IMG/VR virus record: IMGVR_UViG_3300028908_000031
Location: 1-23,447 of that record
Length of the DNA stretch: 23,447 nt
Source: a virus
Reading direction: 5' to 3' (one strand)
In this document: positions 1,887 through 21,744 of the stretch, one piece after another
Numbering within the stretch: the first letter of the stretch is position 1
Layout: every line of letters starts with the position of its first letter
The notes under the pieces: generated by a model
What the model saw: only the letters and a program-made list of their open reading frames with translations
Told to the model about the DNA's origin: nothing
Databases searched by the model: none
Translations under genes and position numbers: made by a program

Positions 1887-2296
1887 TTGATGGAGCGCGG
1901 TTAGTCTATGAGGTACTGACCTCGGATAGTGACCTTGTAGCCGAGACGGGCGGCAGTATCTATGGACCGCCCGGGTTGCCTGCCGGATTTACGTTGAAAA
2001 AGGCTGTCATGTTCTACGGGGACGGTGGGGACGAGTCTACCCAACTCCCCGTTGTAGAACAGACGTTCACGTTTCATTGCTACGGGGAAACATCCGCTCA
2101 GGCGCGGCGGGTGTATTCCGTTCTGTCCGATGCTCTCTGGCGAAAGGCGGGGGAGAACGTAACCGTGAACAGCGAAACGTGGAGATTGATATTCACCTGG
2201 CATGGTGGCGGGCCATATGACCTGGTTGAACCAGAATTGGGGTGGCCGTACGTCCGGGTATCTTACATCCTGCGGTTTATCCGGGAGGCCATGTAG
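1883..2296 (+). CDS. Tail terminator / tail completion protein (DUF3168-like)
   Basis: A 137-aa protein whose layout fits the tail terminator family (lambda gpU / DUF3168-like): an N-terminal helix (ARLVYEVLTSDSDLVAETG), a GGSIYGPPGLP turn, then beta strands with PVVEQTFTFHCYGETSAQARRVYSVLSDAL, which corresponds to the family's 'fdv..ys....A..l...v..aL' core, and a final antiparallel strand (WPYVRVSYILRF). The protein caps the growing tail tube and joins it to the head. Start ATG 1883 overlaps the previous stop, with AGGGG a few bases upstream. It stops at 2294-2296, where the next gene begins by a one-base overlap. Confidence 0.78.
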   Translation: MIDGARLVYEVLTSDSDLVAETGGSIYGPPGLPAGFTLKKAVMFYGDGGDESTQLPVVEQTFTFHCYGETSAQARRVYSVLSDALWRKAGENVTVNSETWRLIFTWHGGGPYDLVEPELGWPYVRVSYILRFIREAM

Positions 2297-3318
2297 TGCG
2301 TCGGTGGCGGGTGGTTATAGGAACGCCGGCGGTAGCGGGTGCACCGCACGGGTACGGCATCATTGCCGGCGGCATTACGCGAACATTGGGACGCGATCCT
2401 CGGTTCGACGTCTTGCCGGCGCTACTGGCGCGTGAGTGGGATATCCGGCTTCTGGTGTCGGTGGTTTCTCCCTGGATGTTGGCTGGGTGTGATGCGTCGG
2501 ATGTAATTTGGCACACCATGTTCGAGGTTGAACCGTTCCCGGCATGGTGGGCCGATATTCTTAATGGGGTGCGGGGGGTATGGGTTCCTAGCACGTGGGT
2601 TAAGGACCAGTTGCGGTCTATCGGCGTGCGCGTTCCCATCCTTGTCGCACCTTACGGCATTGACCACGGCATATTCACGTATGTCGACAGGCGGGAAACG
2701 CGCAAGGATAAGCCGTTTACGGTGTTTGCCTGGGGACGCGGATTCGTAAGCAGAAAACGGTTGCTGGATGCGGTAGCAGCGTTCGTCAAGGCCGACATAC
2801 CGAACTCACGGCTGGTCGTCAAGGTGAACGAGGATGATGAGACCGTGCGGAACGGGGCATCTTTCACCTGGAACGGCCAGGAAGTTGAGAACGTGACGGT
2901 TATCCGGGCCAACATGGGGCGGCGGGCTATCGCGCAACTGCTCCATGAGGCGGACGTTATGTTATATCTGAGCGGCGGCGAGGGATTAGGCTTGATGCCG
3001 CTGGAGGCGATGGCCACCGGTTTGCCGGTTATCTTGATGCCCGTCACCGGGATGACGGAATACGCTAATGAGCACACGGCGTTTCTGGTGGCCGGACGTC
3101 GGGAATACGCTACCACGTACATGGCCAGATGGCACTACGAGTCGTGGTGGTGGCGGGCCGACCTGGATGATGTGGCGGATGTTCTACGGTATGCGTACGC
3201 GCACCCGTCCGAGCGCCACCGGATTGGGGACGCGGGGCATAGGAAATCACTGGAATTCACGTGGTCCAGAATGGCCGATTCGTTAGCGGCGTTTTTGGAC
3301 CAGATTACGGAGGGATAA
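2296..3318 (+). CDS. GT4-type (GT-B fold) glycosyltransferase
   Basis: I place the start at GTG 2296, which overlaps the last base of the previous stop and gives a 340-aa protein beginning MRRWRVVIGTPA. An in-frame ATG at 2242 would lie inside the upstream gene. The N-terminal half has the Rossmann-like opening and Gly-rich loop (GYGIIAGGI). The linker contains the family phrase APYGIDHGIF. The C-terminal half carries FAWGRGFVSRKRL and the diagnostic EX7E motif, EGLGLMPLEAMATGLPVI, with Glu229 and Glu237, which bind the donor sugar nucleotide in retaining GT4 enzymes. Acceptor and sugar are unknown. Its position inside the late operon suggests it acts on virion proteins, or on a host surface glycan during assembly. 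Such cargo is unusual between tail terminator and major tail protein. Confidence 0.88.
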   Translation: MRRWRVVIGTPAVAGAPHGYGIIAGGITRTLGRDPRFDVLPALLAREWDIRLLVSVVSPWMLAGCDASDVIWHTMFEVEPFPAWWADILNGVRGVWVPSTWVKDQLRSIGVRVPILVAPYGIDHGIFTYVDRRETRKDKPFTVFAWGRGFVSRKRLLDAVAAFVKADIPNSRLVVKVNEDDETVRNGASFTWNGQEVENVTVIRANMGRRAIAQLLHEADVMLYLSGGEGLGLMPLEAMATGLPVILMPVTGMTEYANEHTAFLVAGRREYATTYMARWHYESWWWRADLDDVADVLRYAYAHPSERHRIGDAGHRKSLEFTWSRMADSLAAFLDQITEG

Positions 3319-3322
3319 GACG

Positions 3323-3841
3323 ATGGGCGGAATTAGCGGAAATACCAAGAATTATATTCTGTACGGGACGAACGCTTATGTTACCGTGGACGGCACGGAC
3401 CTGGGGGCAACGCTGGGCGACATCGAAATCAAGATTGGGCTGGAACAGTACTACCCAGACTTCGCCCAGGCGCGTGGTCCTGTGGCCGGCACGGGCAAGG
3501 TGAAGTCCGGCACGTTCTCCGTGTCGACGACGATTAGCGAGTGGTCGTGGGCAACGCTCTCGAATGTAATGGGGTCCATTGGTGCGGATAGTTCCGGCGC
3601 GTCCGAGAAATACGGCGGTGCGGCGCTGGACGATATCGTGGAAGTGGAAAATGTGGTTGTCAAGGGCGTGACACGAAACGACGGCAAGGCAATGCGGGTA
3701 ACTATCCCCAAGGCCTACGTCGAGGTGGAAGGTTTTACGCTCACGGAAAACCAGGAGACTGGTATCAAGGTGACGTTCGTGGGGTTGTACGAAGATACGT
3801 CTCCCACCACGTTGCCGGGGTATATCGAAATCGAGAAGTAG
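3323..3841 (+). CDS. Major tail (tube) protein
   Basis: The 172-aa, beta-rich, low-Cys protein has the size and position of a siphovirus tail tube subunit, just after the terminator block and just before the chaperone frames. It starts at ATG 3323, preceded by GGAGGG. The N-terminal segment (KNYILYGTNAYVTVDGTDLGATLGDIEIKI) resembles tube proteins that define a data-type-like first strand followed by a long beta hairpin (SGTFSVSTTISEWSW). The C-terminal phrase YVEVEGFTLTENQETGIKVTF is typical of the final tube-fold strands. I see no extra Ig-like domain. A 32-base gap separates it from the next gene. The GT4 gene immediately upstream makes this protein a possible glycosylation target (inference). 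Confidence 0.75.
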   Translation: MGGISGNTKNYILYGTNAYVTVDGTDLGATLGDIEIKIGLEQYYPDFAQARGPVAGTGKVKSGTFSVSTTISEWSWATLSNVMGSIGADSSGASEKYGGAALDDIVEVENVVVKGVTRNDGKAMRVTIPKAYVEVEGFTLTENQETGIKVTFVGLYEDTSPTTLPGYIEIEK

Positions 3842-3873
3842 AAACAATCTGAATAACTGAATAGGGGGATATG

Positions 3874-4227
3874 ATGAGCCAGAGCACGAACATCTTGAAT
3901 CTTGACGTGATGATGCCGGAGCCACGGAAAGTCGTTTGGGGTGGCCGCGAACACGATGTGTTGCCTATGACGCTGGAGCAGTTTGCTTATTCTATGCGGC
4001 TTCAGGCTGCGTTACATCGCGCACAGTTTGGAGAAGTTAGCGAGGAAGATTTGTCCGTCATATACAAGATTCTACACGCGGCCATTCCGACTATTCCACA
4101 AGAGGATTTCTCGCGAATGCCTATGCCCGCGTTGACGGAGTTGTTGACCTTCATCACGGGCGGTGTTGAAAGCGAAGACGAAGACGAAGAATACCCGGAA
4201 GACGAACTGGGCGAGGACCTGATGTAA
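3874..4227 (+). CDS. Tail assembly chaperone, first frame (gpG-like)
   Basis: A 117-aa protein located between the tube and tape measure genes, where the gpG/gpGT chaperones lie in siphoviruses. The core has PMTLEQFAYSMRLQAALHRAQFGEVSEEDLSVIYKIL, helical and typical of the family. The last 20 residues are strongly acidic (ESEDEDEEYPEDELGEDLM). There are two adjacent ATG codons, at 3871 and 3874. I use 3874 because AGGGGG at 3863-3868 then has normal spacing. The stop TAA at 4225-4227 lies in the loop of an 11-bp perfect inverted repeat. The next frame begins at once in the -1 register, as expected for a frameshift-extended chaperone. Confidence 0.72.
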   Translation: MSQSTNILNLDVMMPEPRKVVWGGREHDVLPMTLEQFAYSMRLQAALHRAQFGEVSEEDLSVIYKILHAAIPTIPQEDFSRMPMPALTELLTFITGGVESEDEDEEYPEDELGEDLM

Positions 4228-4251
4228 TAGATTGGGCGATGGTCCTCGCCC
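4209..4251 (+). promoter_or_regulatory. Perfect 11-bp inverted repeat at chaperone frame junction
   Basis: GGGCGAGGACC at 4209-4219 and its exact reverse complement at 4241-4251 enclose a 21-base loop. The loop contains the stop of the first chaperone frame (4225-4227) and the first bases of the ATG at 4239. The right arm is followed by GTTTTTG, so in RNA it could act as a frameshift-stimulating stem (mRNA), as an attenuator-like terminator limiting transcription into the tape measure gene, or as a control of re-initiation. Which one cannot be decided from sequence. Confidence 0.6.
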
Positions 4252-4568
4252 GTTTTTGTCACGCGTATCCGGCCTACACCGCCGAGGCCGCGCTACAAAT
4301 GCCGGCATCCCGATTTTGGGCAATGTACGAGTGCATCCCCGCGCTGGAGGCGAACGATGCACTAATGCAGCGCATAGCGTTTCACGGCGACGAGGAGGCC
4401 CACAAAGCGTTAATGAGGGCGGCCAAAATCAGGGTGCCGGATGATAGCGAGAAACTCATACCCGGGGCTATGCCGTGGGTCAAACCACTGGAGAACGCCG
4501 ATGCCATCAGGCGCGAACTGGAAGAAAAACGCAAAGGAACCGATAAAAGTTCACATGGTCCGCCATAA
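4239..4568 (+). CDS. Tail assembly chaperone, second frame (gpT-like extension)
   Basis: This frame translates DWAMVLARFCHAYPAYTAEAALQMPASRFWAMYECIP, then a helical, charged end (ADAIRRELEEKRKG). It looks like the C-terminal T domain that interacts with the tape measure in gpGT proteins. It lies in the -1 register relative to the gpG-like gene and is open upstream to about 4170 (the nearest upstream stop is TGA at 4167-4169), so a -1 shift between 4170 and 4227 would fuse the two. An ATG exists at 4239 but has no convincing ribosome site, so frameshift expression is more plausible than separate initiation. No canonical slippery heptamer is visible: CCCGGAA at 4194-4200, eight bases before the stem, is only a partial fit. 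Confidence 0.62.
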   Translation: MVLARFCHAYPAYTAEAALQMPASRFWAMYECIPALEANDALMQRIAFHGDEEAHKALMRAAKIRVPDDSEKLIPGAMPWVKPLENADAIRRELEEKRKGTDKSSHGPP

Positions 4569-4710
4569 GTTTTGTGGGGCGCGTTTATTCGACACGCGCC
4601 TGGACCTGGAAGAGGTGCCGCTATCCGTAGCGGACATCTTCATCAAGTGCCGCAAGTGCCACAAACTGGTCGGTTTCCGTATACGGCGGGGGACGGAAGA
4701 TGGAGAATAA
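4555..4710 (+). CDS. Small Com-like zinc-binding protein
   Basis: A 51-aa protein from ATG 4555. It overlaps the end of the T-like frame by 14 bases and the tape measure start by 11, which fits a translated gene in a packed operon, although I see no strong ribosome site. It has His4/Cys7 (HKFC) near the N-terminus and a Cys32-x2-Cys35 pair in IKCRKCHKLVGF. This resembles the Com family of phage Mu, small zinc proteins that stimulate translation of the mom DNA-modification gene, and also generic zinc ribbons. Only two Cys plus His4 and Cys7 are obvious ligands. A role in regulating translation of the tape measure or chaperone mRNA would be speculation; no mom-like gene is in this window. Confidence 0.55.
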   Translation: MVRHKFCGARLFDTRLDLEEVPLSVADIFIKCRKCHKLVGFRIRRGTEDGE

Positions 4711-7700
4711 ACTGGTCGTCGGCAAACTGGTCACCAAACTGGTGGCCGACGCTTCGCAATACAACAGCGAAATGCAGCGAGCACAGAACAGGGCGGAAAA
4801 ATGGCGAACCGCCGTTGCGGGGGCCTTCCTCGGCGTGTCTGCTGCTGCATCCGCCTACCTGACGCGGGCCACGATGACGGCGGCGCGCACCCAGGTGCTC
4901 GGGACGTCGCTCAAGGTGGTGGGGGAACAGGCCGGATATTCGCGGGCCGAACTAAAGGCGTACGAGGCGGCCATCAAGCGGATGGGTATCACCACGCAAA
5001 ACGCCCGACTCGCCATGATTCGTTTCATCCAGGCCAATCTGGACCTGGCGGATGCGGCCAAACTGGCGCGGGCGGCGCAGGACCTGGCCGTCATCGCGGG
5101 GATGAATTCCTCGGAGGCGTTCGAGCGCATCACGCAAGCAATCAACGGCCAGATACCACGCTTATTGCGCGTTTTCGGCATCGTTCAGAACTTGGACGAA
5201 ATCTACACTAACTTTGGTCGAACCCTGGGAATTTACACGGAAACGATTAACTCGGCCGGCGAGGCCGAGGGGCATTGGGCGCGCCAACTGACCGAGACGG
5301 AAAAAAAGCAGGCGCTGCTCAACGCGGTGCTGGAGCAGGCGGCGAAGGTGTCGGGCACGTACGTGGCGGCGATGGGGGATGTCGGAAAGAAGATGACGTC
5401 GTTGCCGCGTGTGTTCGAGGAAGCCCGCAACGCTATCGGCAAACACTACCTTCCCGTTCTGAACGCGTTGGTTACGGCGACGTACAACAGCGTTAAGTGG
5501 TTTGACAAACAGTCTGAGGCCACCCAGAAGATGGTGGCGTATTTCATCGGGCTAACCGCCGCTGTCACGGCCGTTGCCGGGGCTGGCCTTCTTCTCGCAC
5601 CCGTGCTTGGCACCATAGCCTCCGCCGTTGCCGCGATAGGTGCTCCGGTTGCAGCGGTTATTGCGGCCACTGGAGCGTTGGCGGCGGCGTGGTCCAAGAA
5701 CGTCGGGAACATCCAGGGAAAGACTAGGGGATTGCTGCGCACATTCCGGGCCGTGTCTGAATACACACGGCGCGAATTGGCTCCCGGTGTGAAGGCCGCG
5801 TGGGGGGAGTTGACGGGCGCTGTCGGCAAGGGCGTAGATTACGCTACCAGAAAATTACACGAGTGGGGCCTAACGCACGAGTGGCTTCAGGGGGTAGTGT
5901 CCAAGGCGACCAGCATGATGATAGACGCCTTGGCGCTTATGCTTGATAGGGTGATGGACGTCGGGCGGGGGATGGTGGCGGCGTTTTCTGCTGCGATGAA
6001 AGCGATGAAAGGCGACTTTGGCGCGGCCAAGGAGATTCTGAAAGACGCGTGGCGCGAGATAGAAAAAAGTACAGCAGAAAGCACGCGAGCACAGGTGGCG
6101 GCTATCTATGAAGATATCCGGGCGGTAGAGGACCTCTCCAATCAAGACGAAAAACTGGTGCGCCTTGCCGAAGCATGGAAAAGGGCAGGAAATGATGTCG
6201 TAGCGAGCGCCGGCGAGATGGCGGAGGCCGCACTAAGCGTTAATGATGCTTGGCAAAAAATCTTGGAATCCATCCAGGCCATTGGTCAATCGGCGGCGGA
6301 TAGCGTACGTGATACCTTTGCGCGCATACGCGACGAGTATGCGCAGCACGCCGTTAACATCGTTCGGATAGAATACGAGCGGCGGCGGGCGCTCGAGCAA
6401 CTGGAGCGCGAATACCAGGCGGAACGGTATCGGCTGGAGAAGAGCGGACACGTGGCGGCCCTCAAACTTCTCCAAGAGGCCGTAGAGCGCAAGCGGGCGG
6501 GTATCCTAGCGTACTATAGCCAACGCATCAAGGATGAACGTAAGGCCCAGGAGACGTTGTTGGTCACCGCGCGTCAGTATCTCCAGGCCGGCCTGGACGA
6601 GGTGAACGCGATGCTAACGGCGCGGGTGCGGGCGTTCCAGGTGGCCTGGGCGCAAATGCAACGAATATCCCTCGCCAATGTAACGTCCATTATCGCGTAT
6701 ATGAAGGCGGCGCGGCAGGTTATGGAGGCGGGCCAGGCCGTCGTCGACATCCAGCGCATTCGCCAGGAGTTGCTGGCGTCGTTCGATGCTATCAGGCGCG
6801 ACGCAGAAAATGCGGCGAATGATGCGGCGAATCAGTGGGAGGCGTGGCGCGACGCTAACCTCAACCTACGCCAGAGCATCGAGGACCTTACTGGTAGTTT
6901 CGACGAAGCGCCCAAGAAGACGAAGGAGAAACTACGCGACCCGCTGCTGGAGGCGGCCGAGGCGGCGGACAAACTAGCAACGGCTACCCAACGGGTCCAG
7001 GACGCGCTGAATGAGTTGGCGCTATCGGGGGCCGTCCGGGGAGATTGGCTGACTCCCATGCGGGAGGCGATGGACGCGGCTATCGTCATGCTGCGGGAGT
7101 GGGCTATCCGGGTGAAGGAGTTGCTGGGGTCCGGCGAGGCTATGCTGGCGGGGGAGGACCGCGAAAAATTCGTCGGGGTTCTTCAGGCGGTGAATGCGGT
7201 AATGCAAGCGGTGGCGGCCACGGCGCGCACCGTGGAGATGCTGGCCGAGGGGGATATCCGGTCCAGTGCGCCGGCGTTCGATATCGTAGCCGACTGGGCG
7301 CGGCAGGCGGTAGAGGCGATGGGGGCCCTGGTCGACCTGGACGAAACCGTGAATACGCCAGAATTCCAGCGTGCACTAATTGTGGGAACTGTGGCGAAAG
7401 TGCTTTCTGATGTTGGAAATGCGGCTCGGGCCCTGGCGGAACTGGACGCGGTCCCACGAGACGTGACAGAAGGACTGTCCGTTGTGGAACGGGCGGCCGC
7501 GGCTATGGTTGAGGCTATGCGGCGCGTGGCGGCCAGCACGGGCATGATTGGACGATACGAGGAGACGTTCGCCAAGCGGCTACAGTCGTTTCTATCCCCC
7601 ATCCGTGATGTGCGCGCGGTGGTGGAGGGTCTTGCGGATATTCGCTACCTACGGGGGACGGACTTAGGGGGCACGATTGAGTGGGGTGTGGAATTGCTGG

Positions 7701-10700
7701 CGCAGGTGGCCGTGTGGATGGGGCGGCTACGGGCCCGCCTACCCGACGCGTACGTTCCGGAAAATGATGTGGCGAGGTTTGCCGCGTCTATGCGGGCCAT
7801 CATTGCCCCACTCAAAGACACGGCCGCTGTCATTGATGCGCTTAATGGTATTCGTCACCTACGCGGTACAGACCTTGGACACGCCATAGGCTGGGGAGAT
7901 GAACTGCTGGCGCAGGTGGCCGTATGGTTCGGGCGATTACGGCGACGGCTACCCGAGGCGTACATTCCCGACCGTGACGCGGAGCGGCTGGCCGGTAGCC
8001 TGCAGGCTATTACGGGGCCTCTCAAGAGCGTGGCGGATATGGTCCGGGCCCTTGACGACATCCGCCACCTGCGTGGCACCGATTTAGGACACGTCATTGA
8101 ATGGGGCGTCGAATTGCTAGCCCAAACGGCAGTATGGTTTGGGCGTTTGCGGCGACGGCTACCCGAGGCTCACGTACCTACGGCGGCCTGGAATGATATG
8201 GCCGCGAATATCGAAAGTATCATTAAGCCATTGAGGGCTATTGCAGGGGCTGTTGGTAGCCTCGCGGATATTCGCTACCTGCGGGGGACAGACCTCGGCG
8301 GTGTGATTGAGTGGGGGGTTGAATTGCTAGCCCAGACGGCCGTGTGGTTCGGTAGATTGCGCCAGCGGCTACCCGAGGCTCACGTACCTACGGCGGCCTG
8401 GAATGATATGGCCGCGAACATCGAAAGTATCCTTAGACCATTAAGGACCATCGCGGATGTCGTGAGTAGCCTCGCGGATATTCGCTACCTACGAGGTACG
8501 GGCCTGGGGGACGTTATCGGGTGGGGCGTCGAACTGCTGGCCCAGGTGATGGTGCGTATCCGACGGCTGAATGAGTTGGACGTGTCGGGAGTAAGGCGGG
8601 CGGCCGGGGTGACGAGCGCCGTTGGCGGAATCGTTGATGTGCTAGAGCGCGTTGTGGCGCTGGCCGGCCAGATGGCCGACGTTGCGCACTTGCGCGGGCG
8701 GCTAGATGCCGGCGGAATCATCGAGTGGGTTACGGGCCTGATAGGCGACATAGCAACCGGGATTGAGAACCTGCCGGACGGCTGGGCGGATAGATTACAG
8801 CAGAATGCCGGGGCGTTCGCGGCGGCCCAAACCGCCATCGAGGCCATCGGACGGGGGATTGATGTCCTGGGGGCGGCGGCCAATGTGCGGTACATCGACC
8901 GGGCCAAGGCCAACCTGAACGCTATGGTGAACGTCTGGGACAACATCCTGACGTCACTGGATGCCAAGATATCCTCCGGGGAATTCAAGATTAACCGTCT
9001 CGTGGAGAAGTGGGGGAATAGCGTTTCGGCCCTGGCGGATAGCCTGAGCGCGGGGATTAGGGTTATCCGGGAGGCGCGGGCAATTCGTGACGTAGACACC
9101 CTGGTGCCACTGGCGCAAAACCTGGGGGAACGGATAATCGAATTTCTGAACGCGTTGGCCGAAAAGGTGAGTGGGTTCGATGCCGAAAAGGACAATGTGC
9201 TCCACGAGTGGGGAGAGGCGGTAGAGGCGCTCATGGGCGGGCTGGCGGCCGGCATAGAGGTTATTCGTTCCCGGCCGCGCACGTGGCAGGAACCGGGGGC
9301 CGTCTGGGATTCGTTCGTTGAGTGGGTCAAGGACACATACCGAACGTTCCATGAGTGGGTGAACGGGCCAAACGGGTTCGAGGATATCGAGATAGACTTG
9401 ACGGCTGAGTGGGCGGCAGCGCTGGAGAGCCTGATGAACGGCCTACAAACGGCGCTTGGGTTGGCGGCTAATCTGCCGCTTGCCTGGGACGTGCGGGCGG
9501 ATGTGTGGGACGCATTCAAGGCGTGGGTAAAGGCGACGTTCAAGGACTTCCACGATTGGGTGACCGAACCGAAGACCGGGCTGGACGCGGAGGGCATTGC
9601 GCTGGTTCAGGCGTTCGGCGATGCGATGAACGCGTTGTTCACCGGCCTGCGCTCCGGCCTGGACGTATTCGAGAATCTGGTTGGCCTTATCCCGCCGGCG
9701 GATGAGCGTATTACGTGGTTCCAGGACCACGTCAAATCGATGTTCACCAGTTTCCACGATGAGGCGGAGCGATTAGGTAGCGACGCCACGGAGGCCACCG
9801 GGGCCTACGGGCGGGCTCTCCAGGATTTGGTCGGTGGCTTATCGTCGGCGCTGGAACTGTTCACCACGTTGATGGACCAAAACCTACGTCGGTTCATTGG
9901 CACGGGGAACGAGAAAGACGGGGAGTTGGCGCGGGCCCTGTCTGACCTAATCCAGGGCATTAGCACCACGATGTCGGCGTTTCAAACATGGGTCGTCAAC
10001 AAATTCGACACGTCCTGGGGGCCGGCGGCGGATACGCTGCGAGAAAAGGTAGAGGCCGTCGTTGGGACGTTGAAGTCGGCCCTGGAGTTGTTCACGTCTC
10101 TCCAAGAACACGGCCTGCCGTCTACCGACCTGATTCAGAAATTCATCGACAGCGTGATGAACCTGTTCCAGGTGTTCGCGGACAACTTGGGGGACAGCAG
10201 CGCTGAGGTTGACGAGGCTGGGCGGGGCGTGACGGAAGCGCTCGGGCGGACGGCGCAGCACATCGGTGCGCAGCAAGCGGATTTCGTCCGGGCCGGGCAG
10301 CAGATAGCGCTAGCCCTGGCCGGGGGCATGACGGACGAGGAGACCGTCAACTGGGCCTGGGAGGGCCGGGTAATCATGCTTGGTCTGAAGGCCGGCCTGG
10401 ACCAGGGGCGCGGCGACGTTATTGCGGCAATGCGGGAGACGGCGGAACGGATGCGCGAGGAACTGGAGCGGGCCTGGGGAATCGCCTCCCCGTCCAAGGT
10501 GGCCGAACGAATCGGACGCCACATCACGGATGGGCTGGTTCGCGGGTTGGGACCAGCGCAAAGCATCTTGTCGGGTGGGCGCATAGAGGTAGAAAACCGG
10601 CGGCGCATTGATGTGCGGGTAACGGTAGACGGCAGCAGCATGGGGCTTGAGGAACGAATGCAGTTGGCGCGTGAATTGGCATATCTGATTAGGGCGGGGG

Positions 10701-10705
10701 TATGA
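4700..10705 (+). CDS. Tape measure protein, 2001 aa
   Basis: This is the largest gene in the window and follows the chaperone frames, as tape measure genes do. The N-terminus (KLVTKLVADASQYNSEMQRAQNRAEKW) is the usual tape measure opening. Around residues 277-330 there is a long hydrophobic Ala/Val/Gly region with probable membrane helices. The centre is largely alpha-helical. Residues about 980-1330 contain five tandem 70-residue units, and a weaker series of about 67 residues continues to about 1690. The C-terminus (about 1880-2001) has the common ending with AWGIASPSKVAERIG. I saw no lysozyme or peptidase motif. The protein sets tail length; at roughly 0.15 nm per residue it predicts a tail near 300 nm. 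Start ATG 4700 follows GGGGGACGGAAG. Confidence 0.92.
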   Translation: MENKLVVGKLVTKLVADASQYNSEMQRAQNRAEKWRTAVAGAFLGVSAAASAYLTRATMTAARTQVLGTSLKVVGEQAGYSRAELKAYEAAIKRMGITTQNARLAMIRFIQANLDLADAAKLARAAQDLAVIAGMNSSEAFERITQAINGQIPRLLRVFGIVQNLDEIYTNFGRTLGIYTETINSAGEAEGHWARQLTETEKKQALLNAVLEQAAKVSGTYVAAMGDVGKKMTSLPRVFEEARNAIGKHYLPVLNALVTATYNSVKWFDKQSEATQKMVAYFIGLTAAVTAVAGAGLLLAPVLGTIASAVAAIGAPVAAVIAATGALAAAWSKNVGNIQGKTRGLLRTFRAVSEYTRRELAPGVKAAWGELTGAVGKGVDYATRKLHEWGLTHEWLQGVVSKATSMMIDALALMLDRVMDVGRGMVAAFSAAMKAMKGDFGAAKEILKDAWREIEKSTAESTRAQVAAIYEDIRAVEDLSNQDEKLVRLAEAWKRAGNDVVASAGEMAEAALSVNDAWQKILESIQAIGQSAADSVRDTFARIRDEYAQHAVNIVRIEYERRRALEQLEREYQAERYRLEKSGHVAALKLLQEAVERKRAGILAYYSQRIKDERKAQETLLVTARQYLQAGLDEVNAMLTARVRAFQVAWAQMQRISLANVTSIIAYMKAARQVMEAGQAVVDIQRIRQELLASFDAIRRDAENAANDAANQWEAWRDANLNLRQSIEDLTGSFDEAPKKTKEKLRDPLLEAAEAADKLATATQRVQDALNELALSGAVRGDWLTPMREAMDAAIVMLREWAIRVKELLGSGEAMLAGEDREKFVGVLQAVNAVMQAVAATARTVEMLAEGDIRSSAPAFDIVADWARQAVEAMGALVDLDETVNTPEFQRALIVGTVAKVLSDVGNAARALAELDAVPRDVTEGLSVVERAAAAMVEAMRRVAASTGMIGRYEETFAKRLQSFLSPIRDVRAVVEGLADIRYLRGTDLGGTIEWGVELLAQVAVWMGRLRARLPDAYVPENDVARFAASMRAIIAPLKDTAAVIDALNGIRHLRGTDLGHAIGWGDELLAQVAVWFGRLRRRLPEAYIPDRDAERLAGSLQAITGPLKSVADMVRALDDIRHLRGTDLGHVIEWGVELLAQTAVWFGRLRRRLPEAHVPTAAWNDMAANIESIIKPLRAIAGAVGSLADIRYLRGTDLGGVIEWGVELLAQTAVWFGRLRQRLPEAHVPTAAWNDMAANIESILRPLRTIADVVSSLADIRYLRGTGLGDVIGWGVELLAQVMVRIRRLNELDVSGVRRAAGVTSAVGGIVDVLERVVALAGQMADVAHLRGRLDAGGIIEWVTGLIGDIATGIENLPDGWADRLQQNAGAFAAAQTAIEAIGRGIDVLGAAANVRYIDRAKANLNAMVNVWDNILTSLDAKISSGEFKINRLVEKWGNSVSALADSLSAGIRVIREARAIRDVDTLVPLAQNLGERIIEFLNALAEKVSGFDAEKDNVLHEWGEAVEALMGGLAAGIEVIRSRPRTWQEPGAVWDSFVEWVKDTYRTFHEWVNGPNGFEDIEIDLTAEWAAALESLMNGLQTALGLAANLPLAWDVRADVWDAFKAWVKATFKDFHDWVTEPKTGLDAEGIALVQAFGDAMNALFTGLRSGLDVFENLVGLIPPADERITWFQDHVKSMFTSFHDEAERLGSDATEATGAYGRALQDLVGGLSSALELFTTLMDQNLRRFIGTGNEKDGELARALSDLIQGISTTMSAFQTWVVNKFDTSWGPAADTLREKVEAVVGTLKSALELFTSLQEHGLPSTDLIQKFIDSVMNLFQVFADNLGDSSAEVDEAGRGVTEALGRTAQHIGAQQADFVRAGQQIALALAGGMTDEETVNWAWEGRVIMLGLKAGLDQGRGDVIAAMRETAERMREELERAWGIASPSKVAERIGRHITDGLVRGLGPAQSILSGGRIEVENRRRIDVRVTVDGSSMGLEERMQLARELAYLIRAGV
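7637..8686. repeat. Five tandem 210-bp repeats within tape measure gene
   Basis: Units start at 7637, 7847, 8057, 8267 and 8477, an exact 210-base (70-codon) spacing. Each begins with the phrase DIRYLRGTDLG or a close variant, followed by EWGVELLAQ and WxGRLRxRLPEA. A sixth, degenerate copy begins at about 8678 (DVAHLRG), with a 201-base offset. DNA near-identity is highest between the later units: 8156-8220 and 8366-8430 differ by a single base, which indicates recent duplication or gene conversion. The first units are more diverged. Confidence 0.93.
9320..9760. repeat. Second, degenerate repeat series in tape measure gene
   Basis: Three copies of a W-V-K-x(4)-F-x-x-F-H segment lie at about 9323, 9524 and 9728 (WVKDTYRTFHEWV, WVKATFKDFHDWV, HVKSMFTSFHDEA). 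They are spaced 201 and 204 bases apart, about 67 residues. Each is preceded by a helical segment ending in an LxxGLxxxL pattern. The series is protein-level only; the DNA has diverged. Confidence 0.7.
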
Positions 10706-10706
10706 C

Positions 10707-12218
10707 GTGAGTCTGCTACACGGAACAGTCGCCGTTACGGTCGAGGTGGGGGGGATAGACGTCACGGAATATCTTCGTGACGAATCCCTTGTGGTCCATG
10801 AGACGCTGGACGGGGATATCCCCACCGCCGAGTTTGTGCTTGAGGACACGTCTAACGCGCTGGACGTGTCGCCGTGGCAAGAGGTTGTCATCAAGGTGAA
10901 CGGAACGCGCGTGTGGGGCGGGTACGTAATCCGACCTATACCAACGGCCGGGCCGGGCGGGACACATCGAGTGTGGACCATGCGGTGCGAGGGATACGCC
11001 AGGCGTTTTCGGCATACGGATGACCTGACGCGCGCCTGGCAGAATGCGACGCCGCAAACAATCGTGGCGGATATGCTAAGCGCGCTGGGACTTGCGGGGG
11101 AATTCGATGGCACTACGTATGTTCCCGCGAGCCCCAGCGTTACTGCTTTTTCGGTGCGTGACGTCAAGTTGGCGGAGGCGCTGGACCGGCTAGGGGCCAT
11201 CACGGGACTAGCGTGGTACGTGGACAGCGAGAAACGAATACGCATGATAGACACATCCAGCGCCATGTGGAACGCTCCGTTCGAGGTGGCTACGATAGGA
11301 ATAGACGCTGCCACGCTAGTGGTGGCGGATGCGGCCACAGAGATAATCGTTGCAAGCGGAATCAACCTGGTGGCGACGGCAGCGGTTAACTGGAGCACGG
11401 TTTTCCCCGTCAACGCCGGCCTGTCTGTCGATTACGGGGACGTCGTAATCAATCGTGTAGTTGTGTACGGTGGGTGGAGTGTCGTTGGACCGATAGCCGA
11501 GGCGTTCACGGGGGACGGCAGCACCACGTCATTCGCCCTATCCCAACATCCCATTCACTCCATCGTATACGTCGAGGTCGACGGGGTCTTGAAATCGTTC
11601 GGAACGATGTGGGTGCATTCGTTTTCTGATTACGATGCGCTCATCGACTATTCCGATGGTGTCGTGTATTTCAGTACGGCTCCGGCCAGCGGGGCCACCA
11701 TACGTGTGGCATATCGACACATGGACAGAGTCACGTACGAGGCTGTCGATGCCGCATCATACGCCACCATAGGTTTCTACATTACGCATACGATTCACGA
11801 TCCGACCATTAGCACCGAGGACAAGGCGGCGGCGGTAGCAAGCGCCTTGCTGGATGAATTCGCCGACGTTCCAGAGCGAATTACGTTCACAGTCGAACGC
11901 GGATGGTTAGTTCCCGGTTACGTTATTCATTGCAACTTTCCCCTCTACGGTATCAACGGGAATTACCTTATTCGAGAGGTAACGACGCGATTCAAGCGGG
12001 ATAACATTGTTGTGCACCAGGTTACGGTTGGGGGCCGGCCGGTACGGATGGGAGAAACGTTGGCCGGCATGTTGCGAGGGTATGGTGGAAAGACGGCGGC
12101 CGACCCGTACGGGCCTGCCGGACTAGTACCAACCATCACCGGAACCACGGATGAGCAGACCGTGGGCGGGGTCATCATGGCCATCGACCCGCGAACCACG
12201 TTCCAGGCGGGGAGTTGA
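10707..12218 (+). CDS. Tail hub / tail-associated protein (gp27 / D-like)
   Basis: The 503-aa protein directly follows the tape measure gene, where distal-tail and hub proteins lie. The N-terminal domain (VAVTVEVGGIDVTEYL, then LEDTSNALDVSPWQEVVIKVNGTRVWGGYV) has the hub pattern, and 'TPQTIVADMLSALGL' with 'LAEALDRLGAITGLAWYVD' is the late control D / T4 gp27-like segment. Around residues 265-340 an inserted beta module begins TGDGSTTSFAL and includes YVEVDGV, a common phage accessory fold. The C-terminal part (about 390-450) has VTFTVERGWLVPGYVIHC and IREVTTRF, which closes the hub domain. The start is GTG 10707, two bases after the tape measure stop, with a GGGGG stretch upstream. No peptidase or lysozyme domain is evident. 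Confidence 0.72.
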   Translation: MSLLHGTVAVTVEVGGIDVTEYLRDESLVVHETLDGDIPTAEFVLEDTSNALDVSPWQEVVIKVNGTRVWGGYVIRPIPTAGPGGTHRVWTMRCEGYARRFRHTDDLTRAWQNATPQTIVADMLSALGLAGEFDGTTYVPASPSVTAFSVRDVKLAEALDRLGAITGLAWYVDSEKRIRMIDTSSAMWNAPFEVATIGIDAATLVVADAATEIIVASGINLVATAAVNWSTVFPVNAGLSVDYGDVVINRVVVYGGWSVVGPIAEAFTGDGSTTSFALSQHPIHSIVYVEVDGVLKSFGTMWVHSFSDYDALIDYSDGVVYFSTAPASGATIRVAYRHMDRVTYEAVDAASYATIGFYITHTIHDPTISTEDKAAAVASALLDEFADVPERITFTVERGWLVPGYVIHCNFPLYGINGNYLIREVTTRFKRDNIVVHQVTVGGRPVRMGETLAGMLRGYGGKTAADPYGPAGLVPTITGTTDEQTVGGVIMAIDPRTTFQAGS

Positions 12219-14056: not shown

Positions 14057-14971
14057 ATGCCGGGAACGACAACAACCAGTTATCGCGGATATACGAAGCC
14101 TCAACTCGGATACGAGGGCACTCCGGATTGGGGTACAATCTACAACCAGAACATTAACGCCATTGACACGGACATTGGGCGTGGGTACACGCCGGTGGGG
14201 TCGGCGACGAACCTTCCGGCCAACCCGTCTGTCGGGGATACGTTCCTGGGGGATGACGGTGCGTTCTATCGTTGTTTTTCGGCGGGTGTATGGACAGTCA
14301 CCTGGCCGGCCTCCCAAATCGGGGCTGGCACAATCGCGGAAGATAAGTTGGCCGACGCGGCCGTAACGACGGAGAAGGTGGCGGACGGGGCCGTGGCGGA
14401 AGCGAAATTGGCCGACGGCGCTGTGACGACGGAAAAGGTGGCGGACGGGGCCGTAACGGAAGCAAGGATAGCGGATGCCGCAATAACTGAAGCAAAATTG
14501 GGGAACGCGTCGGTGACGGCGGCCAAACTAGCGGCTGGTAGTGTAGGGACGGCGGCCCTGGCGGACGATTCCGTTACGATAGAAAAGATGGCGGTCGGGG
14601 CAATCAGCAGACAGGCGCGTGACGAAGACACGGCTTCCGTTAGCGTTACATCGACGACGTGGGTTAGTACGGGGCTCGAGGCAACGATAACTACGTACGG
14701 CGGCGTGGTCCTGCTGTCGGCTCATATCCCCCGGGTAGCCGTCAATGCATCATCCGAAATACATTTCTCGTTCGATGTTGACGGGGCTGTTCTGGGGGGC
14801 GCAAACGGATTAGCCATCACCGTGTCGGATCGGTCCATGACGATAAGGGCCGTCACAACGCTGGCCGCGGGCGCGCACACGGTGAAACTGGTGGCAAAGG
14901 CGACTGGTTCGGGCGGAACCGTCGGCTGGGGGACAATGCCGCACGTGCTGGCTATAACGGAGATGGCGTAG
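14057..14971 (+). CDS. Tail fibre protein, paralogue 1 of 3
   Basis: This 304-aa protein has three parts. Residues about 1-85 form an anchor domain with WGTIYNQNINAIDTDIGRGYTP, ANPSVGDTFL and the YRCFSAGVWT ending. Residues about 90-184 are eight or nine 10-residue repeats of the type ADGAVTTEKV or ADGAVTEAKL, a pattern of fibrous phage proteins that probably trimerise. Residues about 195-304 form a beta domain (STTWVSTGL, FSFDVDGAVLGG, AGAHTVKLVAKA). ATG 14057 lies one base after the previous stop, with GGAGGAG upstream at 14046-14052. The same three-part plan recurs in the next two genes, so the domains evolved by gene duplication. A receptor-binding role is inferred. Confidence 0.68.
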   Translation: MPGTTTTSYRGYTKPQLGYEGTPDWGTIYNQNINAIDTDIGRGYTPVGSATNLPANPSVGDTFLGDDGAFYRCFSAGVWTVTWPASQIGAGTIAEDKLADAAVTTEKVADGAVAEAKLADGAVTTEKVADGAVTEARIADAAITEAKLGNASVTAAKLAAGSVGTAALADDSVTIEKMAVGAISRQARDEDTASVSVTSTTWVSTGLEATITTYGGVVLLSAHIPRVAVNASSEIHFSFDVDGAVLGGANGLAITVSDRSMTIRAVTTLAAGAHTVKLVAKATGSGGTVGWGTMPHVLAITEMA

Positions 14972-14979
14972 GGGGAAAC

Positions 14980-15933
14980 ATGACGACACCGTTGCGGGGA
15001 TACAACGAACCAGCAGTTAATGCGCCCCCGGGGTGGGGGAGCGACTGGAACGACAATTGGGATGCTATCGACGACGACCTCGGGCGCGGGTACACACCGT
15101 CCGGCCTGGATGCGGATAAGCCGGCTAACCCCCAGGCCGGGTGGACATACATTGCGACGGATACGGGCATCATCTACCGATGCCTCACGGACGGTGTGTG
15201 GACGGCGGAACTGTCGGCCGACATGTACGGTGCGGGCGTTCTGACCACAGCGAAACTGGCCAACGGGGCCGTAACTGCGAGTAAGGTTCAATCCGGCGCT
15301 ATTTCGACAGCGAAAATCGCGGCTGGGGCGGTGACAACGGCCAAACTGGCGGATGGCGCAATCACGGCAGTGAAACTTGCCGATAACGCAGTGACGGCAG
15401 CGAAAATTGCGGCCGGGGCGGTAACAACGGCCAAACTGACGGATGGGGCGGTTGGGACAGCGGCCCTTGCTGACGATGCCGTGACGAAAACGAAAATTCC
15501 GGCGGCGTGGGCCACTAGTGGCCAGGATATCGAGGGGACTATCGCGCGCCTACACATGGCGGAGGTGCGCGACCAAAACTTCGTGGTCCACACGGCGCTA
15601 TGGGGACGGATAGGAGACTTCGTCATCACGACATCGACGTACGGCGGGCGCGTGTTCCTCGGGTGGCAAGCGTACAAGCGGGGGATAACATTTTTCGATT
15701 TCGCAATAGATGGAACTAGGGTAGGGGATAGCACGGACGGCCTAGCCATCCCGTTTTTCAATGCGCCGGGGATGGTCAACATCTTCTATCCCGTGTCCGG
15801 CCTGGCAGCGGGTACACATACATTCGAGGTCATGTGGCGAACTGGCACGTCGTCGGATTACGGATACGTAGACACGTATTACACGGGGAAGCAGATTCCG
15901 GCCGTGTTCTGGGTCCTGGAGGTGCGACGATGA
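14980..15933 (+). CDS. Tail fibre protein, paralogue 2 of 3
   Basis: A 317-aa protein built like its neighbours. The anchor (residues about 1-80) contains GWGSDWNDNWDAIDDDLGRGYTP and the IYRCLTDGVWT ending. Residues about 82-177 hold nine or ten 10-residue repeats (LANGAVTASKV, LADGAITAVKL, IAAGAVTTAKL). The C-terminal domain (about 190-317) contains GGRVFLGWQAYK, FAIDGTRVGDSTDGLA, AGTHTFEVMW and ends PAVFWVLEVRR. It is preceded by a clear GGGGGAAA ribosome site (14971-14978). C-terminal sequence diverges more than the anchor, as expected where host-range selection acts on the tip (inference). The gene overlaps the next by four bases (ATGA). Confidence 0.68.
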   Translation: MTTPLRGYNEPAVNAPPGWGSDWNDNWDAIDDDLGRGYTPSGLDADKPANPQAGWTYIATDTGIIYRCLTDGVWTAELSADMYGAGVLTTAKLANGAVTASKVQSGAISTAKIAAGAVTTAKLADGAITAVKLADNAVTAAKIAAGAVTTAKLTDGAVGTAALADDAVTKTKIPAAWATSGQDIEGTIARLHMAEVRDQNFVVHTALWGRIGDFVITTSTYGGRVFLGWQAYKRGITFFDFAIDGTRVGDSTDGLAIPFFNAPGMVNIFYPVSGLAAGTHTFEVMWRTGTSSDYGYVDTYYTGKQIPAVFWVLEVRR

Positions 15934-21068: not shown

Positions 21069-21744
21069 TTTGCACCTCCTCTTTCATTTTTTGTAGGGTT
21101 TCTTTCCTAAACGCCTTCAACCTCGTGTAGAGGTCTCCAGCGCCCGGAACCTCTATGCTGGTTTCGGGAATTTCCACAAACGACTGCGACCACTCAACCC
21201 GGCGATCTGGCAATGGGTCGGGTATGTTGATACGTACAGCCCCATCAGATACAATCGGGGTTATCTCATTTTCTATCATATATTTATCTATGCCGCGGTG
21301 ACTCGCAATCACCGCGTAATAGAAATCCGCAAATAAAATCTTATGCTCCGCGATGGTCTTCCCATCGGAGCCTTGCCCCACAAATTCGCTAACCGTGTTT
21401 GCCGTTGACGACGGCGGCGGTATGAAAGGATATTTCACCTCTACATCTATTACCAATCTTCCCCCGGATATTCTCCCGGGGCGGGCCCGGGAATACACGT
21501 ACTCCAACACTTTCCCGGCGGACGTGAACTCATCCCCCAGGAATCGATGGAGACCGCCGTACCGATATCTGAAACTGAAACGATATCGGCCGGCCGGCCA
21601 GATCCCGTCTGTTGCCTCAATGATAGTCACATCTCTGTCTACCGAACTAAGGTAGACAGAGAACTCCCGTTCGTCTTGCGCAACCACAAGGGACGGGGTC
21701 GTTAGTCGAAAAATTCCACACTTGCAATATATTACACTATTCAT
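21046..21744 (-). CDS. Protein of unknown function (232 aa)
   Basis: A 232-aa protein with a good ribosome site (GGGAGGAAACC before ATG 21744). It starts MNSVIYCKCGIFRL, with Cys7 and Cys9, then alternates beta strands rich in Arg, Tyr and Asp (RYRFSFRYRYGG), a Pro-rich segment (YPFIPPPSS) and a charged helical C-terminus (RLKAFRKETLQKMKEEV). No family recognised. Its early coding sequence contains a 12-bp perfect inverted repeat (listed separately). It lies between the tRNA-like element and the 70-aa gene and is probably transcribed with both. Confidence 0.66.
   Translation of the reverse strand: MNSVIYCKCGIFRLTTPSLVVAQDEREFSVYLSSVDRDVTIIEATDGIWPAGRYRFSFRYRYGGLHRFLGDEFTSAGKVLEYVYSRARPGRISGGRLVIDVEVKYPFIPPPSSTANTVSEFVGQGSDGKTIAEHKILFADFYYAVIASHRGIDKYMIENEITPIVSDGAVRINIPDPLPDRRVEWSQSFVEIPETSIEVPGAGDLYTRLKAFRKETLQKMKEEVQNVPSRTQ
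21632..21662 (-). repeat. 12-bp perfect inverted repeat inside the 232-aa gene
   Basis: TCTCTGTCTACC (21632-21643), loop GAACTAA (21644-21650), GGTAGACAGAGA (21651-21662). The arms match exactly. In the minus-strand mRNA it falls in codons for about YLSSVDRDVTI, near residue 30 of the protein. No T run follows. Possible roles are an RNA hairpin that slows translation, or an operator-like palindrome for a DNA-binding dimer. Confidence 0.8.

Follow-up and report, generated by a model that had tools for sequence, protein, structure and literature searches.

This locus raises the question of how the second of two overlapping phage reading frames is translated. The window, a virus record of 23.4 kb (the chaperone and tape-measure features given below are on the + strand), holds a perfect inverted repeat over the point at which one frame closes and the other continues. 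The first-pass annotation had seen no canonical slippery heptamer there and had suggested a novel recoding signal, a re-initiation device or a built-in attenuator. Judged from the sequence, we consider the site to be a -1 programmed ribosomal frameshift of the lambda G/GT type, with a predicted 118-aa G-type and a predicted 232-aa GT-type chaperone, at a probability of about 90%. This reading is supported by the -1 relation of the frames, the heptamers found in the overlaps, the lack of a start for the T part, the hairpin, the gene order and the precedent of the PRFect study.

Gene order and reading frames

ORF1 (3871-4227) follows the major tail protein gene (3323-3841) and encodes the putative G-type tail assembly chaperone, a 118-aa protein with an acidic C-terminal tail that matched phrog_893 (E = 2.5e-14). 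The ORF2 frame is open from 4170 to 4568 and stands in -1 relation to ORF1, and the two frames are open together for 58 nt (4170-4227). ORF1 closes with a TAA at 4225-4227, and an in-frame TAG comes after it. Following a -1 slip, the T-type part would be read from 4200 to 4568, giving a fusion product of 232 aa. The gene for the tape measure protein (4700-10705; 2001 aa, matching tape-measure PHROGs) comes directly after the chaperone ORFs. The two ORFs are flanked by the genes for the major tail protein and the tape measure, the same order as in relatives.

Several other features of the window were recorded. At the contig edge (1-330) is a 51-bp tandem repeat of 6.5 copies with 85% matches, in which one frame is open as a repeat protein. 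The tail module includes a GT4-like glycosyltransferase gene (2242-3318; phrog_2170, E = 4.7e-27), which is flanked by the tail-terminator-like gene and the tail-tube gene. A small ORF at 4441-4710, between the chaperone genes and that for the tape measure, carries paired cysteines (HKFCGARLF...FIKCRKCHKLVGFRIRR); it had no family match and resembles small zinc-finger proteins such as Com of phage Mu. Further tandem repeats at 8096-8544 (210 bp), 14336-14463 (60/30 bp) and 15305-15503 (90/30 bp) fall within the tape-measure gene and within genes further downstream that probably encode tail fibres.

A tblastn search against phages recovered Pseudomonas phages nickie and hairong and Rhizobium phages RHEph10 and RHph_N1_10, all four with the same layout and the same -1 relation. 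IMG/VR loci were added through alignments of the T part, the alignment of ORF1 alone being too variable as a query, and the comparison set consisted of 42 non-redundant loci, the window and 41 distant relatives. No close relative was obtained from single-protein scans of viral contigs, for which the queries were ORF1, ORF2, the tail protein, the N-terminus of the tape measure and the protein of 10707-12218, nor from a scan of genome contigs. The -1 relation was kept in the window and in 41 of 41 relatives.

The Pfam search returned nothing for the window's ORF1, and the lambda G/T families of Pfam and PHROGs were not matched by its ORF1 or ORF2 proteins. Two PHROGs of unknown function did match the pair: phrog_893 matched ORF1 in 17 of the 17 members scanned, and phrog_1131 matched the T parts or ORF2 relatives in 12 of 13. 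Most likely these two families represent, respectively, the G part and the T part of a tail chaperone made by frameshifting, which would give both of them a likely function. In the seven annotated records examined (including nickie, RHEph10 and Salmonella phage SSU5) the pair is entered as separate hypothetical proteins, and in most of the seven the second gene is annotated from an internal start codon.

The T part has a conserved start, D[F/W]...[F/L][A/S]R[F/V], which begins at 4230 in the window, and the first ATG comes later, at 4239. Of the 42 loci, 37 (window included) had a motif that could be scored automatically, the five with a differing motif being left out, and none of the 37 had an ATG, GTG or TTG before the D[F/W] motif in the ORF2 frame, even though that frame extends, uninterrupted by stops, back into ORF1. 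Because no start codon precedes its conserved beginning, the downstream T part is probably produced exclusively in fused form. Two separate proteins, with ORF2 started from ATG 4239 by termination-reinitiation and the hairpin joining stop and start, are a highly improbable outcome. The ATG does lie 12 nt past the ORF1 stop, and an exception to the scored loci was seen later in a distant relative, Stenotrophomonas phage BUCTxx99, where an ATG at the ORF1 stop precedes the conserved motif and is accompanied by an A_AAA_AAA run. A start at 4239 would, however, remove the conserved D[F/W] at 4230, and this ATG touches the 3' arm of the hairpin and lacks an obvious ribosome-binding sequence at the usual distance. 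The suggested re-initiation device is thus contradicted by a conserved downstream region that begins before any start codon.

The hairpin over the ORF1 stop

The first-pass annotation had described an 11-bp perfect inverted repeat with the ORF1 stop in its loop, a T run behind it and an open overlap at 4170-4227, and each of these was found as claimed. The arms of the core stem are at 4209-4219 and 4241-4251, the loop is 21 nt long, and the 3' arm encodes V-L-A-R of the T part. The predicted stem is longer than 11 bp, with 4201-4206 pairing with 4255-4260 outside the core. The stretch 4201-4262 has a predicted folding energy of -30.7 kcal/mol (z = -5.8), and the core hairpin alone one of -24.6 kcal/mol (z about -5 for the core stem).

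Perfect 11-nt repeats with a loop of up to 30 nt gave 4 hits at 3 places in the whole window, compared with 0.33 in shuffled sequences, and the chaperone hairpin was the only one within the tail genes. By folding z-score, calculated against mononucleotide shuffles, the hairpin stretch ranked 5th of 2339 folding windows; by raw folding energy it was less special, at 121st of 23385. When the region was recoded synonymously, with ORF1 preserved up to its stop and ORF2 beyond it, equally good folding was reached in 5 of 5000 recodings, and the hairpin is therefore no by-product of the encoded proteins. No Rfam match was obtained over 3800-4700 at E values up to 1. The most extreme folding outlier in the window is elsewhere, at 21611-21672 (z = -6.3), and contains a 12-nt perfect inverted repeat (21632-21643/21651-21662).

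The structures of the relatives were compared within the same loci. Stretches after the heptamer had a mean z of -1.9 versus -0.4 in control stretches, and z fell below -2 in 39% of the former versus 10% of the latter (p about 1e-6, by a statistic that ignores the relatedness of the loci). A stem is therefore common among the relatives and not universal, many of them having no strong structure, and the window's stem is not shared with them letter for letter. This lack of conservation is not decisive against a frameshift, because relatives differ in their stimulatory structures yet retain both the heptamer and the -1 relation.

A stem followed by a T run may also be read as an intrinsic terminator or an attenuator that separates the chaperone genes from the tape-measure gene, in which two competing hairpins would share the 3' arm 4241-4251 and pair it either with 4209-4219 or with 4234-4239 (loop 4240-4245). 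In favour of this arrangement, the stretch 4233-4252, with TTTTTG, resembles a terminator, and the predicted energy of the short hairpin is -11.2 kcal/mol, which is far outweighed by the -24.6 kcal/mol of the long one. The T run (4253-4257) has another explanation: it is part of CGT TTT TGT, which encodes a conserved Arg-Phe-Cys motif present in most relatives, including relatives that lack this stem. Terminator-like matches between 3000 and 6000 numbered 6, compared with 3.1 ± 1.8 expected, and the position of the hairpin fits that of a frameshift stimulator. Since the T run encodes conserved Arg-Phe-Cys and terminator-like sites are little above expectation, no attenuator is needed; these results speak weakly against the one proposed earlier, and we regard termination here as extremely unlikely.

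The heptamer C_CCG_GAA and its counterparts in relatives

In the ORF1 frame, CCCGGAA at 4194-4200 reads C_CCG_GAA, and 8 nt separate it from the core stem. The spacer (4201-4208) is partly able to pair with 4255-4260 when free of ribosomes. A heptamer-to-stem distance of 8 nt falls within the usual spacing of stimulators. No heptamer of the strict form X_XXY_YYZ occurs in frame in the window's overlap, and CCCGGAA is not strictly canonical either: re-pairing of the Glu tRNA with GGA requires a G-U pair in the middle of the codon.

The type has nevertheless been reported for this gene. In the PRFect study (PMC10885494; preprint PMC10274946), CCCGGAA is the commonest form of the -1 'threetwotwo' motif among annotated phage frameshifts, and the 'fivetwo' motif has GGGGGAA as its sole form, with about a thousand cases. 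The cases of both motifs are annotated or predicted, not measured, and the authors noted that G-U pairing lets these motifs mimic the canonical one (PMC10885494). The first-pass annotation was right to name CCCGGAA as a slip candidate at a tail-chaperone frame switch; the view that a usable site is lacking does not hold, since the heptamer lies in the overlap, in the correct frame, and is a recurrent, reported tail-chaperone motif. A novel recoding signal is likewise unsupported, because the heptamer type is published and GGGGGAR recurs in 7 of the 41 relatives.

Taken alone, CCCGGAA says little, because such in-frame heptamers are not rare in this phage. Canonical or XXXGGAR heptamers were found in frame at 29 of 6502 codon pairs, three of them CCCGGAA, and the chance of one in an 18-codon overlap is about 8%. 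The relatives add to it: a canonical X_XXY_YYZ or a G_GGG_GAR was present in the overlap of 40 of the 41, and a canonical or XXXGGAR heptamer in 41 of the 42 loci with the window included. The one locus without such a heptamer (L053) has G_GAA_AAG. Over all 42 loci, heptamers occupied 42 of 729 codon pairs in the overlaps, compared with 31 of 4663 upstream in ORF1.

The XXXGGAR type was found in eight of the 42 loci, as CCCGGAA in the window and as GGGGGAA or GGGGGAG in seven relatives; CCCGGAA itself was absent from all 41 relatives found. G_GGG_GAR involves the same Glu slip from GAR to GGA as C_CCG_GAA. That such heptamers form a second class was already raised in the PRFect paper (PMC10885494), and their recurrence inside one homologous family is the addition of the present sequence analysis. 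We lean towards X_XXG_GAR being a true second class of -1 heptamer, between which and the canonical class the chaperone family moves. If so, the textbook X_XXY_YYZ rule would be too narrow for phages. Searches with the strict rule may be missing real phage frameshifts, and the apparent missing slippery site of this locus becomes a plain frameshift case.

The frameshift may also be real and take place elsewhere in the overlap, for example at G_GGC_GAG (4209-4215), with CCCGGAA incidental. GGGCGAG is in frame, and in-frame heptamers of the XXX type arise by chance. It lies, however, inside the stem, with no structure left downstream, and both GGC and GAG would re-pair poorly in the -1 frame, whereas CCCGGAA is of a reported type and has the 8-nt spacer. 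A slip at such another position is very unlikely.

Proposed slip and comparison with known systems

With CCCGGAA as the candidate slip site, most ribosomes would translate ORF1 to its stop at 4225 and release the 118-aa chaperone. A minority would pause while CCG occupies the P site and GAA the A site, delayed by the hairpin, whose core begins after 8 nt, and would slip back by one base onto CCC and GGA. They would then translate the -1 frame, hairpin region included, as far as 4568, producing the 232-aa fusion. That CCCGGAA is the exact place of the slip, that the hairpin acts as pause or stimulator, and that efficiency is low are inferred parts of this scheme. A literature search for mass-spectrometry precedents found no paper.

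The arrangement resembles that of lambda gpG/gpGT in its short chaperone with a low-level -1 fusion (here predicted), in its overlapping -1 frames and in its position between the tail-tube and tape-measure genes. The heptamers differ, the canonical G_GGA_AAG of lambda standing against the window's C_CCG_GAA. The -1 programmed frameshift of lambda gpG/gpGT in tail assembly has been reviewed (PMC5009743). The PRFect motifs of SEA-PHAGES tail chaperones (PMC10885494) come from other phages and agree with the window in the identical CCCGGAA, the -1 direction and the gene concerned.

Pseudomonas phage nickie, Rhizobium phage RHEph10 and Salmonella phage SSU5, kin through phrog_893 and phrog_1131 at a protein identity to the window of about 20-30%, have a related ORF1/ORF2 layout with the same -1 relation, and in them, too, the tail tube gene precedes ORF1 and the tape measure gene follows ORF2. 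Their heptamers are unlike that of the window, being canonical in nickie (CCCAAAG) and RHEph10 (GGGAAAC) and G_GCA_AAG in SSU5, and their annotations give two hypothetical proteins without a frameshift. In SSU5 (L065, 1148-1815) the second chaperone gene is annotated from an internal ATG, and an unannotated -1 fusion at the G_GCA_AAG adjoining the stop is likely.
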